From Herpetosiphonaceae bacterium (lineage in GTDB: Bacteria; Chloroflexota; Chloroflexia; Chloroflexales; Kallotenuaceae), in contig DASUTC010000070.1 of NCBI GenBank assembly GCA_036374795.1, positions 1-47,866 on the forward strand: DNA of 47,866 nucleotides, in the 5' to 3' direction. The position numbers and the translations under genes are program-made. Under the pieces are notes generated by a model. It worked only from the letters and a program-made list of their open reading frames with translations. It was not told where the DNA came from and made no database searches. Below, piece by piece: positions 20,647-30,170 of this stretch. Positions within the stretch are counted from its first letter, which is position 1. Every line of letters starts with the position of its first letter.

Positions 20647-22389
20647 CTAGCTCCCAGGATCCGATCTGGCGCGCGGTGCTGGCTGGCGTATCCCGCGCAG
20701 GGCCTCGTCGACGGTCAGCCAGGGCCGGTGGCGAAACAGCTTGCCGATCTGCGACGAAAAAATCAGCGAGTCGTTGAGCAAGACCTGCGGTGCTCCCGCC
20801 ACGATCACCTCACCCTCTCCCAGCAGCACCACCCGATCCGCGCAGGCCGCGACCAGCTCCACGTCGTGTGTCACCAGCGCGATGCCGCGACCGTCCCGGC
20901 TCAGTTGTTCCAGCAGCGCGATCAGCAGCGCCTTGTTGCGATAGTCCAGGCCGCGCGTCGGCTCGTCCAGCAGCAGGATCGTCGGCTCGGCTACCAGGAT
21001 CGTCGCCAGGGCAGCCCGCTGCTGCTCGCCGCCGCTGATCTCGCGCGGGTGCGCCGTCGCCAGGTGTTGCAGGTCGAGCAGCGCCAGCGTCCGCTCGATG
21101 CGCTCGGCGATAGCGCGATCGTCCAGACTCTTGCCGTGGCTGCGGCGCTGCCAGAGCGTCCAGCGCAGCTCGTCGCCGACCGTCTCCTGAAAGAGCAGCG
21201 CGCGCGGGTCTTGCGGCACGTAGCCGATCAGCTTTGCACGCTCCTCGGTGGGCAGCGCGGTGATCGGTCGTCCGCCGACCGCGATCGAGCCGCGTGAGGC
21301 CGCGACCAGCCCCATGATCGCGCGCAGCAGCGTCGTCTTGCCCGATCCGTTGCGGCCCATGATCGCCACAAGCTCGCCTCCGCCGATCTCCAGCGAAACC
21401 TGATGCAGCACATCGCGGCCTGCCAGCTCGACGCTCAGGTTGTCGATGCGCAGCGCGGCTGGCTCGGCTCGCTCTGGTACAGCCCGTCGTCGCGTGACGA
21501 AGCCGCCGCGCGGTCGCTGGTGCCCTGACGATTCGATCGCCGTGGCCTGTGGCGCGGTCGTCGCCGCTGCCTGGTCGAGATCCTGCGCCAGCACAAAGCG
21601 CCGCCCCTCTTTGATCGTCAGCGGCAGCGGCTCCCAGCCCAGCGCCCGGCTGAGCTGCACCAGTGGCGGCGCAAGCTCGCTGCGGGCCAGAATCGCGCGC
21701 GGCGTGTCCATGATCACAGTCGGCGGCTGCTCCGGCTGACGCTCGAAGACGAGCAGGCGGTCGGCGTACTGCACCACGCGCTCCAGACGATGCTCGCTCA
21801 AAACGATCGTCAGGCCCAGGTCGGCGTTCAGCTTTTGCAGCGCGGTCAGCACCTCCTCGGCGGTATGCGGATCAAGCTGTGATGTGGGCTCGTCCAGCAC
21901 CAGCACATGCGGCTGCATCGCCAGCACCGAGGCAATCGCCACCCGCTGCCGCTCGCCGCCGGAGAGCGTCGTGATCCGCCTGCGGCGCAGATGCGCGATC
22001 TCAAGCTGATCGAGCACCTCCTCGACGCGCCGCCGCATCACCTGCGGCTCCAGCCCCAGGTTTTCCATGCCGAAGACCAGCTCATCCTCGACGACCTCGA
22101 CGACCATCTGGGCTTCGGGATCTTGAAAGACGAAGCCGACGATGCCCGCCAGATCGCGCGGCTCGACTGAGCGGGTATCGTATCCGGCGACGCGCACGCG
22201 GCCACCGAAGCGACCGCCGTAGAAGTGCGGCACCAGGCCGTTGAGACAGCGCAGAAACGTCGATTTGCCCGTGCCCGACGCGCCGGCGACCAGCACGAAG
22301 TCGCCCTCGGCGATCGTCAGCGATACGTCGTGCAGCACCGGCTGAGCAGCGTTCGGGTAGCTGTAGGAAACGTGCTCGAACTGAATCAT
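20647..22389 (-). CDS. Fused double ATPase of an ECF transporter (EcfA-EcfA')
   Basis: 580 residues with two complete ABC cassettes. The first (1-260) has Walker A GASGTGKST, signature LSGGERQRVAIASVLA and Walker B VLVLDEPTSQLDP. The second (about 305-545) has GRNGSGKTTLLRA, ISGGEQQRAALATILV and ILLLDEPTRGLDY. A fused pair of this size is typical of group II ECF transporters (YkoD-like). It energises vitamin or metal uptake with EcfT. It overlaps the NUDIX gene by 4 bases (ATGA) and ends the cobalamin-riboswitch operon. An expected substrate is corrinoid, from the riboswitch and neighbours (inference). Confidence 0.92.
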   Translation of the reverse strand: MIQFEHVSYSYPNAAQPVLHDVSLTIAEGDFVLVAGASGTGKSTFLRCLNGLVPHFYGGRFGGRVRVAGYDTRSVEPRDLAGIVGFVFQDPEAQMVVEVVEDELVFGMENLGLEPQVMRRRVEEVLDQLEIAHLRRRRITTLSGGERQRVAIASVLAMQPHVLVLDEPTSQLDPHTAEEVLTALQKLNADLGLTIVLSEHRLERVVQYADRLLVFERQPEQPPTVIMDTPRAILARSELAPPLVQLSRALGWEPLPLTIKEGRRFVLAQDLDQAAATTAPQATAIESSGHQRPRGGFVTRRRAVPERAEPAALRIDNLSVELAGRDVLHQVSLEIGGGELVAIMGRNGSGKTTLLRAIMGLVAASRGSIAVGGRPITALPTEERAKLIGYVPQDPRALLFQETVGDELRWTLWQRRSHGKSLDDRAIAERIERTLALLDLQHLATAHPREISGGEQQRAALATILVAEPTILLLDEPTRGLDYRNKALLIALLEQLSRDGRGIALVTHDVELVAACADRVVLLGEGEVIVAGAPQVLLNDSLIFSSQIGKLFRHRPWLTVDEALRGIRQPAPRARSDPGS

Positions 22390-22958
22390 GCCTGCGTCGA
22401 GCGCTCCAGCAGATACCAGCAGAGCGGCAGGACCGAGTAGGTGTTGCGAATCTTGCCGCTCTTGAGCAGCTCCGGCAGCTCGTCGATCGGGACCAGATGC
22501 GGCTCAAGCTCCTCGTGCTCGTCCCAGGCGGTCGGATCGGTTTCGGTCGCGCCCTCGGCCAGCACCGCCGTGAAGTGGTTGGTCATAAAGGCCGGGTTGG
22601 AGTCGGTCTGGCCCAGGATACGAAACGATCGCGCCGTGTAGCCGGTTTCCTCGCGCAGCTCACGGGCCGCCGCTTCTTCGGGCGTTTCGCCAGGCTCGAT
22701 CAGGCCGCCGGGCGTCTCAAGCGAGATCGTTCCGGTGCCGTGGCGGTACTGCGCCACCAGCAGCACCTTGCCGTCGGGCGTTACCGGTAGGATGTTGACC
22801 CAGTCGGGACTTTCGAGCACGTAGAAGTCCGCGCGCCGATCGCCGTCGGGAATGTGGCTGTAGTCGTGGCGGACCTTGAAGATTCGACAGTCGACGACGT
22901 GCTCGCTGCGGTCGATCTGCCAGGTGGGAATGTTATGCTCCGTGTTGTCGTTCATCAA
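22386..22958 (-). CDS. NUDIX hydrolase (ADP-ribose pyrophosphatase-like)
   Basis: 190 residues. The full Nudix box is present: GGLIEPGETPEEAAARELRE followed by ETGY (G-x5-E-x7-REUxEExGU). The start WQIDRSEHVVDCRIFKVRHD and WVNILPVTPDGKVLLVAQYR match ADP-ribose/nucleoside-diphosphate-sugar pyrophosphatases. It cleaves X-P-P-Y bonds in the cytoplasm. It lies between EcfT and EcfA, with its stop overlapping the EcfA start, so it is firmly in the operon. A role in corrinoid or nucleotide-loop salvage is conceivable but not shown. Confidence 0.92.
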   Translation of the reverse strand: MMNDNTEHNIPTWQIDRSEHVVDCRIFKVRHDYSHIPDGDRRADFYVLESPDWVNILPVTPDGKVLLVAQYRHGTGTISLETPGGLIEPGETPEEAAARELREETGYTARSFRILGQTDSNPAFMTNHFTAVLAEGATETDPTAWDEHEELEPHLVPIDELPELLKSGKIRNTYSVLPLCWYLLERSTQA

Positions 22959-23024
22959 TTGCCTCGTGTTTGACTAGCGCAGAATCAACGAGCGTATTCG
23001 GAAAACGTCGCATGCGATTCTGGG

Positions 23025-24164
23025 TTAGAGAGGGGAATCTTTGGGGGACTCCCCCAAATCCCCGGCCTGATGGCGCACTAAATAGATGAGCGCTGGCGTG
23101 CTGAGTAGCAACAATAGCGCCCCGGTCGTCGGATCGAACGACGGCATCCTGGCGCGCGGCAGCGTGGTGTAGATCAGATCGCCGCGATCGAGCAGCCGCA
23201 GCGTGGTCATGCCAACGATCACGGCCAGACTTGCCAGCGCGACGAGCGTATCGCGCCGATGCCAGCGCTCGCGCAGGTAGCGTGTGCGACGTGTGCCGCC
23301 GCCGATCCAGCGGAGCGCGCCCAGCGCCAGCAGCCCCCCGATCGCCGCTGCGATCCAGCCCTGCCAGCTCCCGGTGAAGCCAATGTAGAGCCCCAGCGCC
23401 AGGATCGTCACGCCGACGACGATCGCGCCCTGCACCCAGGCCACGCCAGGTCGCCGCGCGGTCACCCGCCCGTAGCCCCGGCTGTCCATCGCCTCGGCAA
23501 GCTGGATCGAGCGCTCAAGGCCGCCCGATAGCAGCGGCACCAGCAGCGGCAGGCCGTCGCGCCAGGTGCGGAAGCGATGGCCGCGCACCCGCTGCGCGTC
23601 GCGGATCGCCTGCAACTGCAAGATGACCTGCGGCACGAACGTCAGCGCGATCGTCGTCATCAGGCCCGCGTGGAACAGGAAGCGCGGCGTGCGCCGCAGC
23701 AGGCCATAGTGATCGGCGACCGCGTTGAACGCGCCGAAGACCAGGATCAGCGCCCAGAGCCGGATGCCGGAGACGAGGCCGCCGAGCAGCATCTCAAGCG
23801 TGGCCGTGCCGCCCAGCCGCAGACCGCCCAGCCAGAGCGGCAGCTCGATCTCCGGCAGCGTCGCCAGCGGCGTCGCGCCATACGAGAAGCCGCCGACCGG
23901 GATCATGCTCAGCAGCGTGCGGACGACGACCAGCGCCAGGCCCAGCCGCAGAAAGAGGCCGAACGCACGCCCGACCGGACTTTCGGTGTGGCAGCTCTGC
24001 GCGATCAGCACCGCCTGTGCCATGATCAGCAGGTTGAGCAGCGGATTGGTCGAGATCGCGACGACGCCCGCGATCAGCCAGAGCAGCCAGACGAGGCTGT
24101 GAAGCTCTGCCGCTGGCACAGCCGCGCGCGTCGGTCTGCTCCGCGTTGTCTTGGTGCGCGCCAT
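23025..24164 (-). CDS. EcfT transmembrane component of an ECF transporter (CbiQ-like)
   Basis: 379 residues, longer than the usual 250-270. The CbiQ core (about 1-260) has several helices and the coupling motifs FVPQVILQLQAIRDAQRVRG and AEAMDSRGYG, the Arg-Gly helices that touch the ATPases. An extra C-terminal part of about 110 residues adds two to three helices (WVQGAIVVGVTILALGLYIG, WIAAAIGGLLALGALRW, then ALLLLLSTPALIYLV). EcfT joins a substrate-binding S protein to the ATPases. No S component gene is visible in the operon. The start follows a 20-codon micro-ORF by 3 bases. Substrate inferred as corrinoid or cobalt from the riboswitch. Confidence 0.88.
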   Translation of the reverse strand: MARTKTTRSRPTRAAVPAAELHSLVWLLWLIAGVVAISTNPLLNLLIMAQAVLIAQSCHTESPVGRAFGLFLRLGLALVVVRTLLSMIPVGGFSYGATPLATLPEIELPLWLGGLRLGGTATLEMLLGGLVSGIRLWALILVFGAFNAVADHYGLLRRTPRFLFHAGLMTTIALTFVPQVILQLQAIRDAQRVRGHRFRTWRDGLPLLVPLLSGGLERSIQLAEAMDSRGYGRVTARRPGVAWVQGAIVVGVTILALGLYIGFTGSWQGWIAAAIGGLLALGALRWIGGGTRRTRYLRERWHRRDTLVALASLAVIVGMTTLRLLDRGDLIYTTLPRARMPSFDPTTGALLLLLSTPALIYLVRHQAGDLGESPKDSPL

Positions 24165-24167
24165 GGC

Positions 24168-24230
24168 TCAGCGCAGCCCGTGATCATTCGACGGCACGAT
24201 CGTCGTGAGCGTTGCGTGGTGGATCTTCAT
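24168..24230 (-). CDS. Micro-ORF of 20 codons between phosphatase and EcfT genes
   Basis: The peptide MKIHHATLTTIVPSNDHGLR is encoded by a frame whose ATG overlaps the phosphatase stop (ATGA) and whose TGA is 3 bases before the EcfT ATG. It thus exactly bridges the gap. It holds three histidines. It could be a coupling ORF that carries ribosomes on to EcfT, which has no clear Shine-Dalgarno of its own, or a real small protein. It is too short to judge coding by composition. Confidence 0.4.
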   Translation of the reverse strand: MKIHHATLTTIVPSNDHGLR

Positions 24231-24865
24231 CGTCGGCCCGCCAGCGGCGGGACTTCGTTGATCACGCGGGTGATCGTGCCCGACGGGTAGAGATCCAGGT
24301 TGGTGATGCCGCCCAGGTCGATCCGCCACTGCCAGGAGCGCTCGAACGGCAGCCTGAGCAGCGCGCACAGCAGCAGTTGGATCGGCGTGGCGTGCGTGAC
24401 GATCAAGATCCGCTGGCCGTTATACTCGCGCAGTGCGGCGTCCCATGCGGCCTCGACGCGCGTCCACAGATCGGCGGTACACTCGCCGCCATGCGCGCGG
24501 CTGTGCCAGGGATCGGCGAAGCGCGCACGGCTCTGCGCCTGGTATCGCGCGAAAACCTCGGCGTAGGTCAGGCCCTCCCAATCGCCATGATCGGACTCGC
24601 GCCAGCGCTCATCGAGCACGATGCCCGGCGTGCGCGGCTGCCGCTCGGCGACAGCGCGCGCCAGATCGTCGGTGCGGGCCAATCCCGACGTGATGATCGC
24701 CCGGAACTGGATCCGGCGTAAGCGCCGGGCCACGGCCTCTGCCCGCGCCTGTCCGAACGCGGTCAGCGGTCGATCGCTGCGGCTCTGATAGCGCTGGGCC
24801 TTGTTCCAATCGGTCTGGGGGTGGCGCACCAGCCACACGTCGGTATGGCGCGTGACACCGATCAC
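24227..24865 (-). CDS. Histidine phosphatase, CobC/phosphoglycerate-mutase-like
   Basis: 212 residues from a GTG that overlaps the DUF4430 stop (GTGA). The catalytic RHG-type motif reads VWLVRHPQTDWNK (Arg-His near residues 15-16). GDWEGLTYAEV and ILIVTHATPIQLLLCALL supply the second half of the active site. CobC enzymes of this family remove the phosphate from alpha-ribazole phosphate late in cobalamin nucleotide-loop assembly. The riboswitch context makes that role attractive. A generic phosphatase cannot be ruled out because RHG reads RHP here. Confidence 0.82.
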   Translation of the reverse strand: MIGVTRHTDVWLVRHPQTDWNKAQRYQSRSDRPLTAFGQARAEAVARRLRRIQFRAIITSGLARTDDLARAVAERQPRTPGIVLDERWRESDHGDWEGLTYAEVFARYQAQSRARFADPWHSRAHGGECTADLWTRVEAAWDAALREYNGQRILIVTHATPIQLLLCALLRLPFERSWQWRIDLGGITNLDLYPSGTITRVINEVPPLAGRR

Positions 24866-25767
24866 TGCTGGCGTCTCCAGCGCGCAACTCCGATCGCGCC
24901 CAGCAGCCCGGCCAGCATCGCGCCAAAGACGAGATAGCTGCCCAGATTCGCGGATGACGGCTCCGGCTGCGCCGCGCTCGTCGGCGTCGGTGTCGGCGTG
25001 CTGGTGCTCGTCGGCGTCGGCGCGGGCGTGCTGGTGCCGGTCGCGGTGCTTGTCGGCGTGTCGGTCGGCTGCGGCGTCGTGGTCGCGGTGCTGGTCACGG
25101 TTGGCGTCGGCGTATCAGTCGGCAGCACAGGCGTGACGGTTGGCGCAGCCGCGACCACAGGCGCGGTCGGTTTTGGGGTGGGCTTTGGTGTAGGCCGCGC
25201 GGTTGGTCTGGGCGTTGGTCGTGCCGTCGGGCGCGCGGTTGGCCTGGGCTGAGGCTTAGCGGTCGGCTCCGGCGCTGGTATGGCCGTCGGCTGGATCGCG
25301 GGACAGATCTGCTCGAAGGTGACGACCGGCGGCTGCGCTCCGCTCTGGACGTTGCCGCTGCCCCAGGCCCATCCATCGACATCGCCGCTGGCGACACGCC
25401 GCGCGCCCGCGCCCTGAGCGGCGTACTGCCAGGCTCCGCCGCTGAGCCGCCAGTAGGCCCAGTACTGGCCCTGCTGCCCGCCGCCGAACTTGCAGAAGCA
25501 TGGCTCAGCAGGAAACGAGCAGCCATCCCCGCCGATCTTGCAGACCGCGGCATTCCCGCCCGACGTTTGCGCGATCACATCCAGGCCGCTGCGCTGCAAC
25601 AGCTCGATGCCGCTGATACTCTCGCCTTGGAACGACACGCAGCTTGTGTGGACGCTGCCATCGCTGAATCTGACGACCACGCCCGCGCGGCTCGGACCCT
25701 GGCTCTGGATCGGGGCCGGGATGAGCAGGACGAGCAGCGGCAGCAAGAGTATCGGCAGGCGTTTCAT
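24862..25767 (-). CDS. Surface-anchored DUF4430 (transcobalamin beta-domain-like) protein
   Basis: 301 residues. Signal peptide (LPILLLPLLVLLIPAPIQS), then a domain of about 130 residues with the DUF4430 pattern: VVVRFSDGSVHTSCVSF, SGIELLQRSGLDV, QYWAYWRLSGGAWQYAAQGA and VDGWAWGSGN. Six cysteines lie here (for example CKIGGDGCSFPAEPCFC) and may form disulfides. A Pro/Thr-rich stalk of about 115 residues (PTARPTPRP, TPTPTVTSTATTT) leads to a C-terminal membrane helix (YLVFGAMLAGLLGAIGVA) and RWRRQQ. DUF4430 is the fold of the C-terminal cobalamin-contacting domain of intrinsic factor and transcobalamin. Placement after a cobalamin riboswitch and a barrel protein supports corrinoid capture outside the membrane. 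Confidence 0.82.
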   Translation of the reverse strand: MKRLPILLLPLLVLLIPAPIQSQGPSRAGVVVRFSDGSVHTSCVSFQGESISGIELLQRSGLDVIAQTSGGNAAVCKIGGDGCSFPAEPCFCKFGGGQQGQYWAYWRLSGGAWQYAAQGAGARRVASGDVDGWAWGSGNVQSGAQPPVVTFEQICPAIQPTAIPAPEPTAKPQPRPTARPTARPTPRPTARPTPKPTPKPTAPVVAAAPTVTPVLPTDTPTPTVTSTATTTPQPTDTPTSTATGTSTPAPTPTSTSTPTPTPTSAAQPEPSSANLGSYLVFGAMLAGLLGAIGVARWRRQQ

Positions 25768-25798
25768 ACGTTCGATCGTTTCACAAAAAAGGTTGTTT

Positions 25799-25874
25799 GC
25801 AGGCCCTCACCCCCGTCCCCTCGCCCATCGCCATGGGCGAGGGGTGGCGCAGTAGCGACGGGGTGAGGGCCTGC
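25799..25874. repeat. Nested palindromic element (CCCTCACCCC type)
   Basis: Outer arms GCAGGCCCTCACCCC.GTC and GACGGGGTGAGGGCCTGC match over 18 bases. Inside, CCCCTCGCCCAT/ATGGGCGAGGGG forms a perfect 12-bp hairpin with a CGCC loop. It fills the gap between the barrel and DUF4430 genes. On the minus strand it is followed by AAACAACCTTTTTT, so it could act as an intercistronic attenuator or mRNA stabiliser as well as being a mobile-type repeat. Confidence 0.75.
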
Positions 25875-25881
25875 TATCGGC

Positions 25882-27096
25882 CTAGCCCCGCCGCCGATTG
25901 GCAACGAAGCCGGTCAGCAGCGACAGCGCGCCAATCAGCGCCAGGACGGGTGTCAGATCGATCAGGCCGGTATTGGGCAGTTGCGCGGGAATACCGCCGA
26001 CCGGAGGCGACGACGGCGCGGGCGAACCCGATGGCATCGGCGCGGGCGAACCCGACGGCACGGGCATCGGCGCGGGCGATCCCGACGGCAGCGGCGACGG
26101 TGTGCCCGAAGGGCCGGGCACGGGCGAGCCTGCGGGCTGCTCCGGCAGCGCGATGGCGATTCCCTCCAGCGGCAGCGTCCGGCCCACGAGCGCAGGGATC
26201 GCCTGGTAGGTCGCGAGCACGTTATCCTCCGGCTGCGCATCCTGGTAGCGGAACGCGCCGCTGGCGTTCTGGAAGGCCATCAATCGCTGCGCGGGCGTCT
26301 TGCCCTCCCTGGCCCAGTTGTTAAGATCCTCACCTGCGGCGATCAGCGCCTGGATGCTCAGCGCGGTCGAGTTGGCGTCGCTGGCGTTGCCGTACTGTGA
26401 GCTTTGCGAGTACGGAAAGCCGCCGTCCGCGTTCTGCTGCGCGCGATAGTAGGCCACCGCTTTGCCGATCGCGTCGCTGGTATCGCGGGCCGCTTTCAGC
26501 GCTTGCACGGCCAGCGCGGTCGTATTGGTATCGCTGCCGGTCGCGGGAGTGCCGTCGAAACTCCAGCCGCCATCCGGTAGTTGCAGCTTCTTCAGCGCCT
26601 CCACGGCTTCGGGCCTGGGCGTCTGCCCCGCCGCAACTAGGGCGATCAGCGCGTAGGCATGAGCGGTGACATCTTTGCCGTACTGGGCGGTCTGCTCATT
26701 GTAGCCCTTCTGCACATCGACCGTCAGATCCACGCCCTCGGCGGTCGGCGACTGGCCCGCCAGCAGCATCGCGATCACGAACTTCGCGGCCAGGCCAGTA
26801 TCCTGACCGGCTGCTTTGGCCTGTGCCCGCAGAAAATCGACCGGCGATGCGTTGCCTTTTTTGATCTCGGCGATGTTGACGTTCGCAGCCGACAGCGCAA
26901 AGATCGCGTCGGCGGTCGAGCCGGGGCCGAATCCGGCGAACGAGCCGTCTGCCTGCTGCTGGCCGCGAATGTACTCGACAGCCTTATCGATCTCCGGCCT
27001 CGGCTGCTGAGCATAGGCCGGGGCATACGGCGCGATCAGCGCCAGCGCCGCCCAGAGATACATCAGCCAGCGTACGATCATCCTCGTGTGAGTCAC
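25882..27096 (-). CDS. Surface alpha/alpha-barrel protein with prenyltransferase/squalene-oxidase repeats (transcobalamin alpha-domain-like)
   Basis: GTG at 27096 is chosen: it follows the riboswitch terminator, has GGAG 8 bases upstream and leads into a signal peptide (WLMYLWAALALIAPYAPAYA). The product is 404 residues. Helical repeats follow with barrel signatures: IRGQQQADGSFAGFGPGS, LKKLQLPDGGWSFDG, SDTNTTALAVQALKAA and SDANSTALSIQALIAAGE. This is the (alpha/alpha) toroid shared by squalene cyclases, complement C3d and the cobalamin carriers. A Pro/Ser/Gly stalk (PSGSPAPMP repeats) ends in LPNTG, a hydrophobic helix and RRRG, a sortase-type anchor. First gene under a cobalamin riboswitch, so corrinoid binding is the leading idea. 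Confidence 0.82.
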   Translation of the reverse strand: MTHTRMIVRWLMYLWAALALIAPYAPAYAQQPRPEIDKAVEYIRGQQQADGSFAGFGPGSTADAIFALSAANVNIAEIKKGNASPVDFLRAQAKAAGQDTGLAAKFVIAMLLAGQSPTAEGVDLTVDVQKGYNEQTAQYGKDVTAHAYALIALVAAGQTPRPEAVEALKKLQLPDGGWSFDGTPATGSDTNTTALAVQALKAARDTSDAIGKAVAYYRAQQNADGGFPYSQSSQYGNASDANSTALSIQALIAAGEDLNNWAREGKTPAQRLMAFQNASGAFRYQDAQPEDNVLATYQAIPALVGRTLPLEGIAIALPEQPAGSPVPGPSGTPSPLPSGSPAPMPVPSGSPAPMPSGSPAPSSPPVGGIPAQLPNTGLIDLTPVLALIGALSLLTGFVANRRRG

Positions 27097-27120
27097 AGTA
27101 TCCTCTCCTTTTCTGGCAAC

Positions 27121-27145
27121 AAAAAAACCTTTCCGGGTGGAAAGG
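27121..27145 (-). terminator. Intrinsic terminator of the cobalamin riboswitch
   Basis: On the minus strand CCTTTCC-ACCC-GGAAAGG followed by seven T. It lies between the aptamer and the GTG of the barrel gene, so the switch is likely to act on transcription. Confidence 0.9.
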
Positions 27146-27208
27146 CTACGGTACACAGAGCGTGTTGCCGACCACCACCCGTGCCAACGCGGGCGTAGTC
27201 GCTCAGCG

Positions 27209-27349
27209 GCAAGGGTAGGCATTCTGGCTTGCGAGCAGACGATCGGCAGCCTGGCTCAGCCGCTTCGTCTCGTCGTCTCGCTTACAGTAGCGTGGACTGC
27301 GCCGGCCTCGCACCGGCTTCCCCTACAAAGACCTGTCTCGGTCCCTTGC
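27209..27349 (-). promoter_or_regulatory. Cobalamin riboswitch
   Basis: Minus strand. P1 is formed by GCAAGGG (27343-27349) and CCCTTGC (27209-27215). The core is well conserved: GGGGAAGCCGGTGCGAGGCC, then ACGCTACTGTAAGCG, then GAGCCAGG and the B12-box-like GCCAGAATGCCTACCC. Between the aptamer and the first gene is a terminator (27121-27145). Adenosyl- or other cobalamin binding would turn the operon off. It controls the barrel, DUF4430, phosphatase, EcfT, NUDIX and EcfA genes. Confidence 0.95.
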
Positions 27350-27373
27350 GCAAGCGATAAAGTTATGACGCGC

Positions 27374-27401
27374 ATCTTACCATGAAATGAAACGTGTGCA
27401 A
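27374..27401 (-). promoter_or_regulatory. Promoter of the cobalamin-riboswitch operon
   Basis: TTGCAC (27396-27401), 16 bases, then TAAGAT (27374-27379), with TGG just before it making an extended -10. The start would be near 27367, about 18 bases before P1 of the riboswitch. Confidence 0.7.
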
Positions 27402-27851: not shown

Positions 27852-30170
27852 CTACCACTTGGTCGAGCCGCCGCCGCCTTTTTTGGACGATCCCCAGCTT
27901 GACCTGCCGCCGCTGGACGATCCCCAGCCCGACGCGCCGCCGCTGGACGATCCCCAGCTTGAGCCTCCGCCCGACGATCCACGCGACGATCCACGTGACG
28001 ATCGATGCCGCGATGCCGCCAACGCTGCCGCCAGCGCTGCCTGCCGCATCCGTTCCGCCTCGGCGACCTCGCGCTGCGCCTGCTCATGGGCATGCTGAGC
28101 GCGCATCATCGCCCGCCGCGCATACTCGATCTGCGCTTCCAGCGCCGCCGCGCTTGCCGCCTGCGCCATGTATCGCTCAGCCTCGGCGAGCGCTGCTATG
28201 GTATCGTGACGCACCTCACGATGGCGGGTCATGTACTCGTAAGCCTGCGCGATCGTCCACTGAGCCTGGTTCTGCGCCTCGCGCGCCTGCTGTCGCAGCC
28301 GCTCCCGCGCTTCGTGCTCGGCCTGCGCCTGCCGGTGGAGTTCTTGGGTGGTCTGCATCACCTGCCGCACCTGCGCGATAGCCTGAAGATAGTCGGGCCG
28401 CGCGTTGCGCAGCTCATTGCGGGCCATGTCGAGCTGCTGCCCGACGCGCCGTAGCTCGTCCCAGATGCTATCGTGGATGTCGGCGTCGTACTGGCGCACA
28501 TACGTCTCAGCCGCAGCCAGCGCCGCCTGCGCCTGCTCGATCAGCCCCGGCGCGTCGCGGATCGCGCCGTCGATATTGTGCTTGAGCGTGATGATCGCCG
28601 CGATGCGCTGCTCGGCCTCGTCGAGGCGCTGGTTGGCAACGGCAATCTGCTCTAGCGCCTGCTGCCACGCCTGCCGCTCCATCGTGATCAGGCCGCGTGC
28701 CGTCTCAAGCGTCTGCTGGCTCTGCGCCACACGCTGCTGCGCCTCGCTGGGGTAGTCGCGCACGGCCTGCCAGCTCTGCTGCGCGGCGATCCGGCTGATC
28801 TCGTCGAGCGTCTGCCTGCCTCTTGCGATTTGCGCCGTCGCTCGCTCGACGCGCTGCGCCAGCTCGCTCGTCGCCGCCTCGGATTGCCGCTTGAGCTGCG
28901 GCAGCGCCTGGGCCGCGTCAACGGCCTCCTGAGTCCGCCGGGCTGCCGTAGCGGTCAGCCTGGCTGCCACGATGAAGCGCCGATCCTCAAGCGCGCGCTC
29001 GGCCTCGTCCAGGCCCGTCTGCGCCTGCGCCAGGATGTGCTGCGCCGCCTCCGTCCTGAAGCCCTCATCGGCAACTGCTCCGATCGCCGCTGTCGCCTGC
29101 TCGATCGCCGCCCTGCTGTCGATCACCGCCTGCGGCGTTTGCCGCATCGCCGCTTCGAGCGTGGTCAGGCGCGTCTCAAGCTCGTCCGCTGCCTGCGCGA
29201 CCTCCTGGGCCGTCGCGCAGATCTTTTGATACGCCGCCGTGATCGCATTGTACTGATCGACCTTCAGGCCGCGCCGCTCAGGATCGTGATCGTCGAGCTG
29301 CTCATAGTCGAGCAGCATCGTGTTGGCGATCTGCTGCGCTGTGCCGAGCGCTGCGTTCAGCGGTGCGGCATCCTCGGCTGCGACCTGCGGCACTGTGGTT
29401 GTGACGCGCGTCTCAAGATGTTTGATCCGCTGCGGCAGCGCGATGATCTGCTCCACGGCGCCCTGCTTCGCCAGCCGCGCCTGCTGCTGTGCCGCCTGCC
29501 TGCGCTTGCGCTCCCGCTGGTACGCGAAGAGGCCACCCGCCGCGCTGCCAAGCACGAGCACCAGCAGCAGCACGCCAAGCGCGCCGCCCGGCACGCCGAT
29601 GCCCTCACCCGGTACGGCGGCGGGCACTGCCGGTTGTGCTGGCACGGCATTGTCGCCCGGCTTGGCTGCCCCGGCGATGCTCTGATTCATCGCATCCAGT
29701 CCGGCCACAAAGCCGCCCGCAAAATCACCATCGCGGAAGAGCGGATTCATCTGGTCGGTCTGGATCGCCTGCCATTCGCTATCCAGCGCGCCGGTCCACT
29801 GCGCGCCATAGTAGGCCCCGGTTTCGCGATCCTCGATCGCGACGATCAGCAGCAGCAAGTTCGATACTCGATCGCCGTTGGCGTCGTGCCACGTGGCACA
29901 GCCGCCGATCAACTGCTCGGCAAATGCGTCGAGGCTGCTGGACGGCGCATACGTCGCGATCGTCCGCACGCGCACCTCAGCGCCGGTTTCGGCCAGCCGC
30001 TCGGCAGCTTCGCCGACGCGCTGGATCTCGGAGCCAAAAACTCCCGCACTGTCCACCACCACCTGATCGCAGGTCGCCTGGGCGGAGGCGGCGGATATGT
30101 TCGTCAGCGCCAGGGCGATCAGGGTGGCAAGGACGAGCAGTTGTTTCACTAGGATAGGCGGTCGGTTCAT
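27852..30170 (-). CDS. TPM-domain protein with membrane helix, long coiled coil and Gly/Ser/Trp tail
   Basis: 772 residues. Signal peptide (LLVLATLIALALTNISAASA), then an extracellular TPM (TLP18.3/Psb32/MOLO-1) domain (about 33-165: VVDSAGVFGSEIQRVGEAAERL). A membrane helix follows near 195-215 (GVLLLVLVLGSAAGGLFAY) and a basic stop-transfer RERKRRQAAQQ. Then about 480 cytoplasmic residues form coiled coil rich in Ala/Gln/Glu/Arg. The C-terminal tail is SSWGSSSGG-type repeats, with a 30-base DNA period at 27885-27960. TPM domains are linked to membrane-protein repair and membrane phosphatases. GGAGGT lies 6 bases before the ATG. The coiled coil and tail suggest a scaffold; function unknown. 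Confidence 0.85.
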   Translation of the reverse strand: MNRPPILVKQLLVLATLIALALTNISAASAQATCDQVVVDSAGVFGSEIQRVGEAAERLAETGAEVRVRTIATYAPSSSLDAFAEQLIGGCATWHDANGDRVSNLLLLIVAIEDRETGAYYGAQWTGALDSEWQAIQTDQMNPLFRDGDFAGGFVAGLDAMNQSIAGAAKPGDNAVPAQPAVPAAVPGEGIGVPGGALGVLLLVLVLGSAAGGLFAYQRERKRRQAAQQQARLAKQGAVEQIIALPQRIKHLETRVTTTVPQVAAEDAAPLNAALGTAQQIANTMLLDYEQLDDHDPERRGLKVDQYNAITAAYQKICATAQEVAQAADELETRLTTLEAAMRQTPQAVIDSRAAIEQATAAIGAVADEGFRTEAAQHILAQAQTGLDEAERALEDRRFIVAARLTATAARRTQEAVDAAQALPQLKRQSEAATSELAQRVERATAQIARGRQTLDEISRIAAQQSWQAVRDYPSEAQQRVAQSQQTLETARGLITMERQAWQQALEQIAVANQRLDEAEQRIAAIITLKHNIDGAIRDAPGLIEQAQAALAAAETYVRQYDADIHDSIWDELRRVGQQLDMARNELRNARPDYLQAIAQVRQVMQTTQELHRQAQAEHEARERLRQQAREAQNQAQWTIAQAYEYMTRHREVRHDTIAALAEAERYMAQAASAAALEAQIEYARRAMMRAQHAHEQAQREVAEAERMRQAALAAALAASRHRSSRGSSRGSSGGGSSWGSSSGGASGWGSSSGGRSSWGSSKKGGGGSTKW

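Follow-up and report, generated by a model that had tools for sequence, protein, structure and literature searches.

A riboswitch-controlled operon in a Chloroflexota bacterium predicted to encode a two-protein, transcobalamin-like corrinoid trap and an ECF import module

Can two separate proteins, each tethered to a bacterial cell, enclose cobalamin as the two domains of an animal B12 carrier do? This question is raised by an operon of a Herpetosiphonaceae bacterium (Chloroflexota; assembly GCA_036374795.1), in which a cobalamin riboswitch precedes genes for an alpha/alpha-barrel surface protein, a beta-domain surface protein and parts of an energy-coupling factor (ECF) importer. The window, i.e. 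the whole stretch of DNA analyzed here, is the entire contig DASUTC010000070.1 (C70 in our numbering; 47,866 nucleotides) from a genome of 7.75 Mb in 373 contigs. We consider it probable that the operon serves to acquire corrinoids (B12-type cofactors), with a two-chain transcobalamin-like trap feeding the ECF importer. An initial annotation of this DNA had arrived at the same overall interpretation, which is supported by the present analysis, while corrinoid binding, the closing of two chains on one ligand and the hand-off to the importer are what we infer. The computed evidence for this reading comprises the riboswitch with its terminator, the two domain types, the conserved linkage of the genes, natural fusions between them, an S component related to CbrT and a host genome that needs B12 with no sign of making it.

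The genes of the operon overlap or are separated by gaps of 62-114 bases. The parts listed by the initial annotation, namely the riboswitch, the barrel protein, a second surface protein, a CobC-like phosphatase, EcfT and a fused EcfA, were each found where it had placed them, on the minus strand. The operon and its control region consist of the following features:

27197-27362, minus strand: cobalamin riboswitch aptamer, RF00174 (cmscan, 51.2 bits, E 5.9e-10, full model 1-189)
27126-27147, minus strand: intrinsic terminator of the expression platform, AGCCTTTCC-ACCC-GGAAAGGTT followed by a T run (terminator scan and sequence)
25882-27096, minus strand: surface barrel protein (PF00432, PF13243, SCO2321_fam, TIGR01167, GTG start with Shine-Dalgarno site, hydrophobic segments)
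26173-27042, minus strand: alpha/alpha toroid domain of the barrel protein, predicted half of the corrinoid trap (alignment; profile match to squalene-hopene cyclase)
25885-25983, minus strand: LPNTG sorting signal and C-terminal hydrophobic helix of the barrel protein (TIGR01167)
24862-25767, minus strand: transcobalamin-type beta-domain protein (structure prediction, fold search, hydropathy, composition)
25297-25689, minus strand: beta domain of this protein, with the transcobalamin/haptocorrin/intrinsic factor fold (AlphaFold, VIA-align, alignment)
24227-24865, minus strand: CobC-like histidine phosphatase (PF00300, 176 bits; TIGR03162, 143.2 bits)
23025-24164, minus strand: EcfT of the CbiQ type, in which ~120 extra residues form a hydrophobic C-terminal region (PF02361, hydropathy)
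22386-22958, minus strand: NUDIX hydrolase inside the operon (PF00293, 80.7 bits)
20647-22389, minus strand: EcfA and EcfA' fused into a double ATPase, at the end of the operon (two ABC_tran stretches; TIGR04520)

The beta-domain protein is composed of a signal peptide, a domain of ~130 residues with four Cys conserved across the family alignment, a Thr/Pro-rich stalk (114 residues, 59% Thr + Pro) and a C-terminal membrane helix; hydropathy and composition thus agree with the stalk and membrane helix annotated initially. Since sequence profiles of the beta domain had no significant match in the PDB, its fold was settled by structure comparison alone. The AlphaFold model of the domain, for which 49 sequences of the window and of named GTDB genomes were used, reached a mean pLDDT (predicted local distance difference test score) of 93.2; a single-sequence model of the entire protein was poor (pLDDT 48) and was not used. 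When the domain model was searched with Foldseek and VIA-align, the best 15 PDB matches were the beta domains of cobalamin carriers and the bacterial structure 3u7z (Z 10.4-11.7), and the next match, to an unrelated fold, dropped to Z 5.3. Individual VIA-align Z scores were 11.7 for haptocorrin, 11.2 for intrinsic factor, 11.1 for transcobalamin and 11.7 for 3u7z. According to excerpts of two earlier papers, the transcobalamin-type clade of SLBB domains is marked by a beta-grasp fold in which the helix is followed by an inserted beta-hairpin (PMC1796856, PMC1949818). The model has strands at residues 3-10 and 16-23, a helix at 30-35, a hairpin at 41-46/49-55 and later strands, so that its hairpin follows the helix as in this clade.

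Linkage was analyzed in two sets of loci, ~40 from Chloroflexia and 46 from named GTDB genomes, with some genomes shared between the sets. Wherever both genes are present, in 37 Chloroflexia and 38 GTDB loci (75 locus entries), the beta-domain gene is preceded by the barrel gene. EcfT is encoded close by in 33/39 Chloroflexia and 29/46 GTDB loci, and a fused EcfA in 26/39 and 24/46, respectively; contig ends explain some of the gene absences in the GTDB set. Named hosts, found in a collection scan with a 10-sequence alignment, include Chloroflexus, Oscillochloris, Thermomicrobium, Sphaerobacter, Ardenticatenia, Anaerolineae and Dehalococcoidia. Of 400 Chloroflexota genomes sampled evenly, 100 contain the beta domain. 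The initial proposal depended on a conserved association of barrel gene, beta-domain gene and riboswitch in relatives, and such an association extends across Chloroflexota, with the riboswitch upstream in 36/38 loci.

At two loci the domains are joined in one chain. A single open reading frame (ORF) of 927 residues at L119:3817-6600 encodes barrel, barrel, linker and beta domain, in the order of transcobalamin, and an ORF of 772 residues at L118:1411-3729 has the reverse order, beta domain followed by two barrels. Both fused ORFs begin shortly downstream of a cobalamin riboswitch. These natural fusions are the best argument that the separate proteins work jointly. Some loci contain tandem barrels and several beta domains, and the 1:1 pair is therefore not universal. 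At L067:8689-10260, the beta-domain gene and EcfT follow each other with no intervening stop codon; either a fusion or an overlooked gene boundary could explain this.

The importer module was assigned to the ECF type by scores above cut-off for both EcfT (PF02361, 25.6 bits vs 25) and the fused EcfA (TIGR04520, 356 bits vs 315), as the initial annotation had expected for these downstream genes. Many relatives have a membrane protein of the S-component family PF12822 inside the operon (e.g. L040, L055, L083, L098). A profile of 13 of these S components found one significant solved structure, 6fnp_A (E 4.9e-7). This structure is ECF-CbrT, which transports cobalamin and cobinamide (PMC5997447). 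The window genome has one homologue of the family, located on another contig (C31:11174-11941; 296 bits with the family profile), and the EcfT and EcfA of the operon likely pair with it in trans. Across genomes, the S component is present in 75/91 of those with the beta-domain gene vs 10/67 of those without it (Fisher 6e-18, with genomes not independent). The EcfT of the window has ~120 additional C-terminal residues with several hydrophobic segments, and lengths of 330-480 residues are usual among its relatives. This extension was considered as a substitute for the S component, an idea dropped in view of the separate S component in relatives and in this genome.

The ECF module is not the only partner of the surface genes. 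At L058:4258-16162, riboswitch, barrel and beta-domain genes are accompanied by FecCD, an ATP-binding cassette (ABC) ATPase and two PF01497 (BtuF-type) binding proteins, with no ECF module, and FecCD permeases are also found beside the surface genes of L057; the S component was not found in lineages of the L057/L058 type. From gene content, the surface pair thus appears to occur with two unrelated B12-type importers, ECF and BtuCDF-type.

The riboswitch score is well above the RF00174 gathering threshold of 31.5 bits. The element lies upstream of the operon genes on the same strand, ahead of both surface genes as initially annotated, and is the sole cobalamin riboswitch found in the 7.75 Mb genome. 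In the 5' to 3' direction it is followed by the terminator, the Shine-Dalgarno site and the GTG codon of the barrel gene; the site (aaaaggagagg) is a good one and bears out the previously proposed start at 27096. In 36 of the 38 upstream regions scanned in relatives, a riboswitch of the cobalamin clan lies on the same strand as the operon (E at most 2.5e-4); the best match was to RF01482 in six of these, and one RF00174 match fell slightly below cut-off. A terminator was found within 200 bases after the riboswitch in 16 of the 36, compared with 0.18 expected from crude shuffles, and this excess in the sequences favours regulation through transcription termination, at least for the family of the window and for Herpetosiphon-type genomes.

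The barrel protein comprises a signal peptide, an alpha/alpha toroid, a Pro/Ser/Gly stalk, the LPNTG anchor and a C-terminal helix. Two Pfam families above cut-off identify the toroid (PF00432, 39.9 bits vs 26.5; PF13243, 38.9 bits). The anchor was recognized by the LPXTG model TIGR01167 (18.7 bits, cut-off 15.9), whereas its PF00746 score remained below cut-off (12.4 vs 20). With three sortases over cut-off encoded in the genome, the LPXTG motif and the hydrophobic helix point to a sortase-anchored protein, and the barrel and LPNTG anchor described initially were recovered by PF00432, PF13243 and TIGR01167. The profile of the barrel alignment matches squalene-hopene cyclase with E 6.6e-36. 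In the translation of the window barrel, the D-x-D-D motif that class II cyclases carry is absent.

The host genome encodes six B12-binding domains over cut-off. In single-family searches, on which its metabolic gaps rest, its best CobI/CbiL match fell short of the cut-off (57 bits vs 163), and it had no CobS and no convincing BtuC (one borderline FecCD match, 26.8 bits). Judged by these matches, the genome would use cobamides with no sign of corrin synthesis, which fits a reliance on the operon. For comparison, Sun et al. 2013 (PMC3766115) note that genes for B12 synthesis are missing from Herpetosiphon aurantiacus and that its B12 transporter is regulated by a riboswitch. The phosphatase annotated as CobC-like is a clear PF00300 protein; its TIGR03162 score is below the equivalog cut-off of 162.9 bits, and it is not assigned as CobC itself. 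In Chloroflexus-type loci, CobC is followed by CobS. Across the class, the S component marks B12 auxotrophs weakly (p 0.006, with genomes not independent). The operon as a class-wide marker of such auxotrophs was rejected (Fisher p 0.85), as it also occurs in other genomes.

Taken as a mechanism, scarcity of cobalamin would leave the terminator unformed through the riboswitch, and the operon would be transcribed by read-through. The wall-anchored alpha/alpha barrel and the membrane-tethered beta domain would then close over one corrinoid at the cell surface and pass it to the CbrT-related S component encoded elsewhere in the genome, and EcfT with the fused EcfA would power import through this component. 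For a broader version we see about an even chance: a split, separately tethered transcobalamin that closes on the corrinoid and reopens at an importer exchangeable between lineages (CbrT-like ECF or BtuCDF-type ABC), with the surface pair and the riboswitch as the constant parts.

Several observations weigh against this corrinoid-trap interpretation. Pfam, including DUF4430 (PF14478), gave no match in the beta-domain protein of the window, and among 30 family members there was a single DUF4430 match with E 0.18; the initial DUF4430 call therefore stands for the fold, which the model shares with cobalamin-carrier beta domains and 3u7z, and fails by Pfam score. The nearest solved relatives of the barrel by sequence are squalene-hopene and related cyclases, and its profile finds no transcobalamin-type carriers; the proposed structural match of the pair to cobalamin carriers was thus obtained for the beta domain (Z 10.4-11.7), while the toroid, judged by sequence alone, is cyclase-like. 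No S component is encoded within the window operon, and with three further CbiQ-type EcfT proteins in the genome the partner in trans is not unique. The CobC-like enzyme scores under the CobC cut-off in a genome with no CobS. Finally, the beta-domain gene is present in 19/34 genomes with CobI/CbiL and shows no link to the loss of corrin synthesis (the same Fisher p 0.85).

Against this background, three other explanations were weighed. The surface proteins could form a relay instead of a clasp, each binding the corrinoid or touching the transporter alone, with the barrel catching the ligand first and the beta domain serving for docking or hand-over at the S component. The different anchors and separate stalks of the two proteins would suit such a relay, as would the multiple barrels and beta domains per locus and the uninterrupted L067 frame, which would put the beta domain at the transporter. 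We nevertheless hold it to be unlikely, given that animal carriers sandwich one B12 between both domains (excerpts of PMC1796856) and that barrel and beta domain share one chain in L118 and L119. It is less probable still that the pair captures, and the ECF module imports, another ligand whose uptake cells regulate by cobalamin, for instance a cobalt complex, ribazole or a lower-ligand base. Cobalt uptake systems are known to include CbiQ-type EcfT proteins, the CobC-like gene and the CobS of relatives suggest lower-ligand assembly, and a reviewer of the 2007 prediction discussed below cautioned that ligands may be diverse (excerpts of PMC1796856). However, CbrT, to which the S component is related, is a proven B12 S component, the structural matches of the beta domain are specifically to B12 carriers, and a precursor or cobalt alone is not obviously useful to a genome with neither CobS nor CobI/CbiL. 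We give very little credence to the barrel as a secreted enzyme of the terpene cyclase superfamily or a generic surface adhesin with an incidental position in the operon. Its closest solved relatives speak for an enzyme, whereas the missing D-x-D-D motif, the predicted secretion and wall anchoring, and the invariable place upstream of the beta-domain gene (75/75 entries) speak against both versions.

Animal transcobalamin, intrinsic factor and haptocorrin (2BB5, 2PMV, 4KKI) likewise combine an alpha/alpha barrel with a beta domain of the same fold, and by analogy the enclosure of B12 between two domains may be shared. In contrast to these carriers, the system described here has two polypeptides, each anchored to the cell, is encoded in a bacterial operon under a riboswitch, and has a barrel that is cyclase-like by sequence. 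Burroughs et al. (2007) described bacterial SLBB domains of the transcobalamin C-terminal type fused to alpha/alpha toroids, often surface-anchored and encoded next to CbiO and CbiQ; they suggested that such proteins scavenge B12 and that the animal carriers originated in bacteria (excerpts of PMC1796856). The domain pair, the surface anchoring, the CbiO/CbiQ neighbours and the predicted function are thus the same. In the excerpts, the proteins are mostly fused or multidomain and come from Gram-positive bacteria and some archaea; Chloroflexota, a riboswitch, an S component and a split pair are not named there. No experiments on such a barrel and beta-domain system were found in the open-access literature, which is weak evidence given that most subscription papers lie outside it; the initial statement that no experimental description was known holds to that extent, with the qualification that the fused form had been predicted in 2007. 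What is new is therefore the split, separately anchored, riboswitch-controlled pair in Chloroflexota, with a CbrT-like or BtuCDF partner.

Other known systems share parts of this design. ECF-CbrT of Lactobacillus delbrueckii (6FNP) is a cobalamin importer with an S component akin to the family found here and transports B12 in liposomes with no surface binding protein, whereas the S components described here sit beside a predicted two-part surface trap and are longer, with 260-320 vs 182 residues (PMC5997447). The barrel and the beta-domain protein match the SCO2321 and SCO2322 families, respectively (NF053823, 97.3 bits vs a cut-off of 300; NF040672, 37.1 vs 85), as relatives and not as members, which is consistent with a counterpart pair in actinobacteria. 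These models are named for neighbouring genes of Streptomyces coelicolor, and no functional description of either family was found in the open-access literature. The Bacteroides proteins BtuG and BtuH differ in fold from the pair described here, and their partner is the outer-membrane protein BtuB, with no ECF module. These lipoproteins capture B12 at the surface ahead of the transporter, as proposed for the present pair (for BtuG, PMC6143338).

The system is small enough to be testable: it comprises a pair of soluble ectodomains, a single riboswitch, an ECF module and a CbrT-related S component, and the phylum has members in culture, among them Chloroflexus and Herpetosiphon. If the trap is real, it would show how a corrinoid is caught between two separate proteins and handed over to a membrane importer, and would provide a bacterial reference for the origin of animal B12 carriers as a living counterpart of their single-protein architecture.

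Several further observations concern the neighbourhood and distribution of the system. The NUDIX hydrolase gene between EcfT and EcfA, identified by its PF00293 match, was not mentioned in the initial annotation; it is found in 2/39 Chloroflexia loci, in close relatives only. Just upstream of the riboswitch and outside the operon, positions 27852-30170 encode a protein that has a TPM domain at its N terminus, followed by a long middle region predicted to be coiled-coil-like and a Gly/Ser-rich tail. No viral copies of the system were found. Three closely related loci (L106, L108, L112) occur in bins named Gracilibacteria, Gemmatimonadales and Berkelbacteria, and are probably mis-binned Chloroflexota contigs. 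In one family of the class search (f4), the beta domain was present in 1/26 genomes, although most of them have cobalamin riboswitches, which suggests a different uptake or synthesis strategy.

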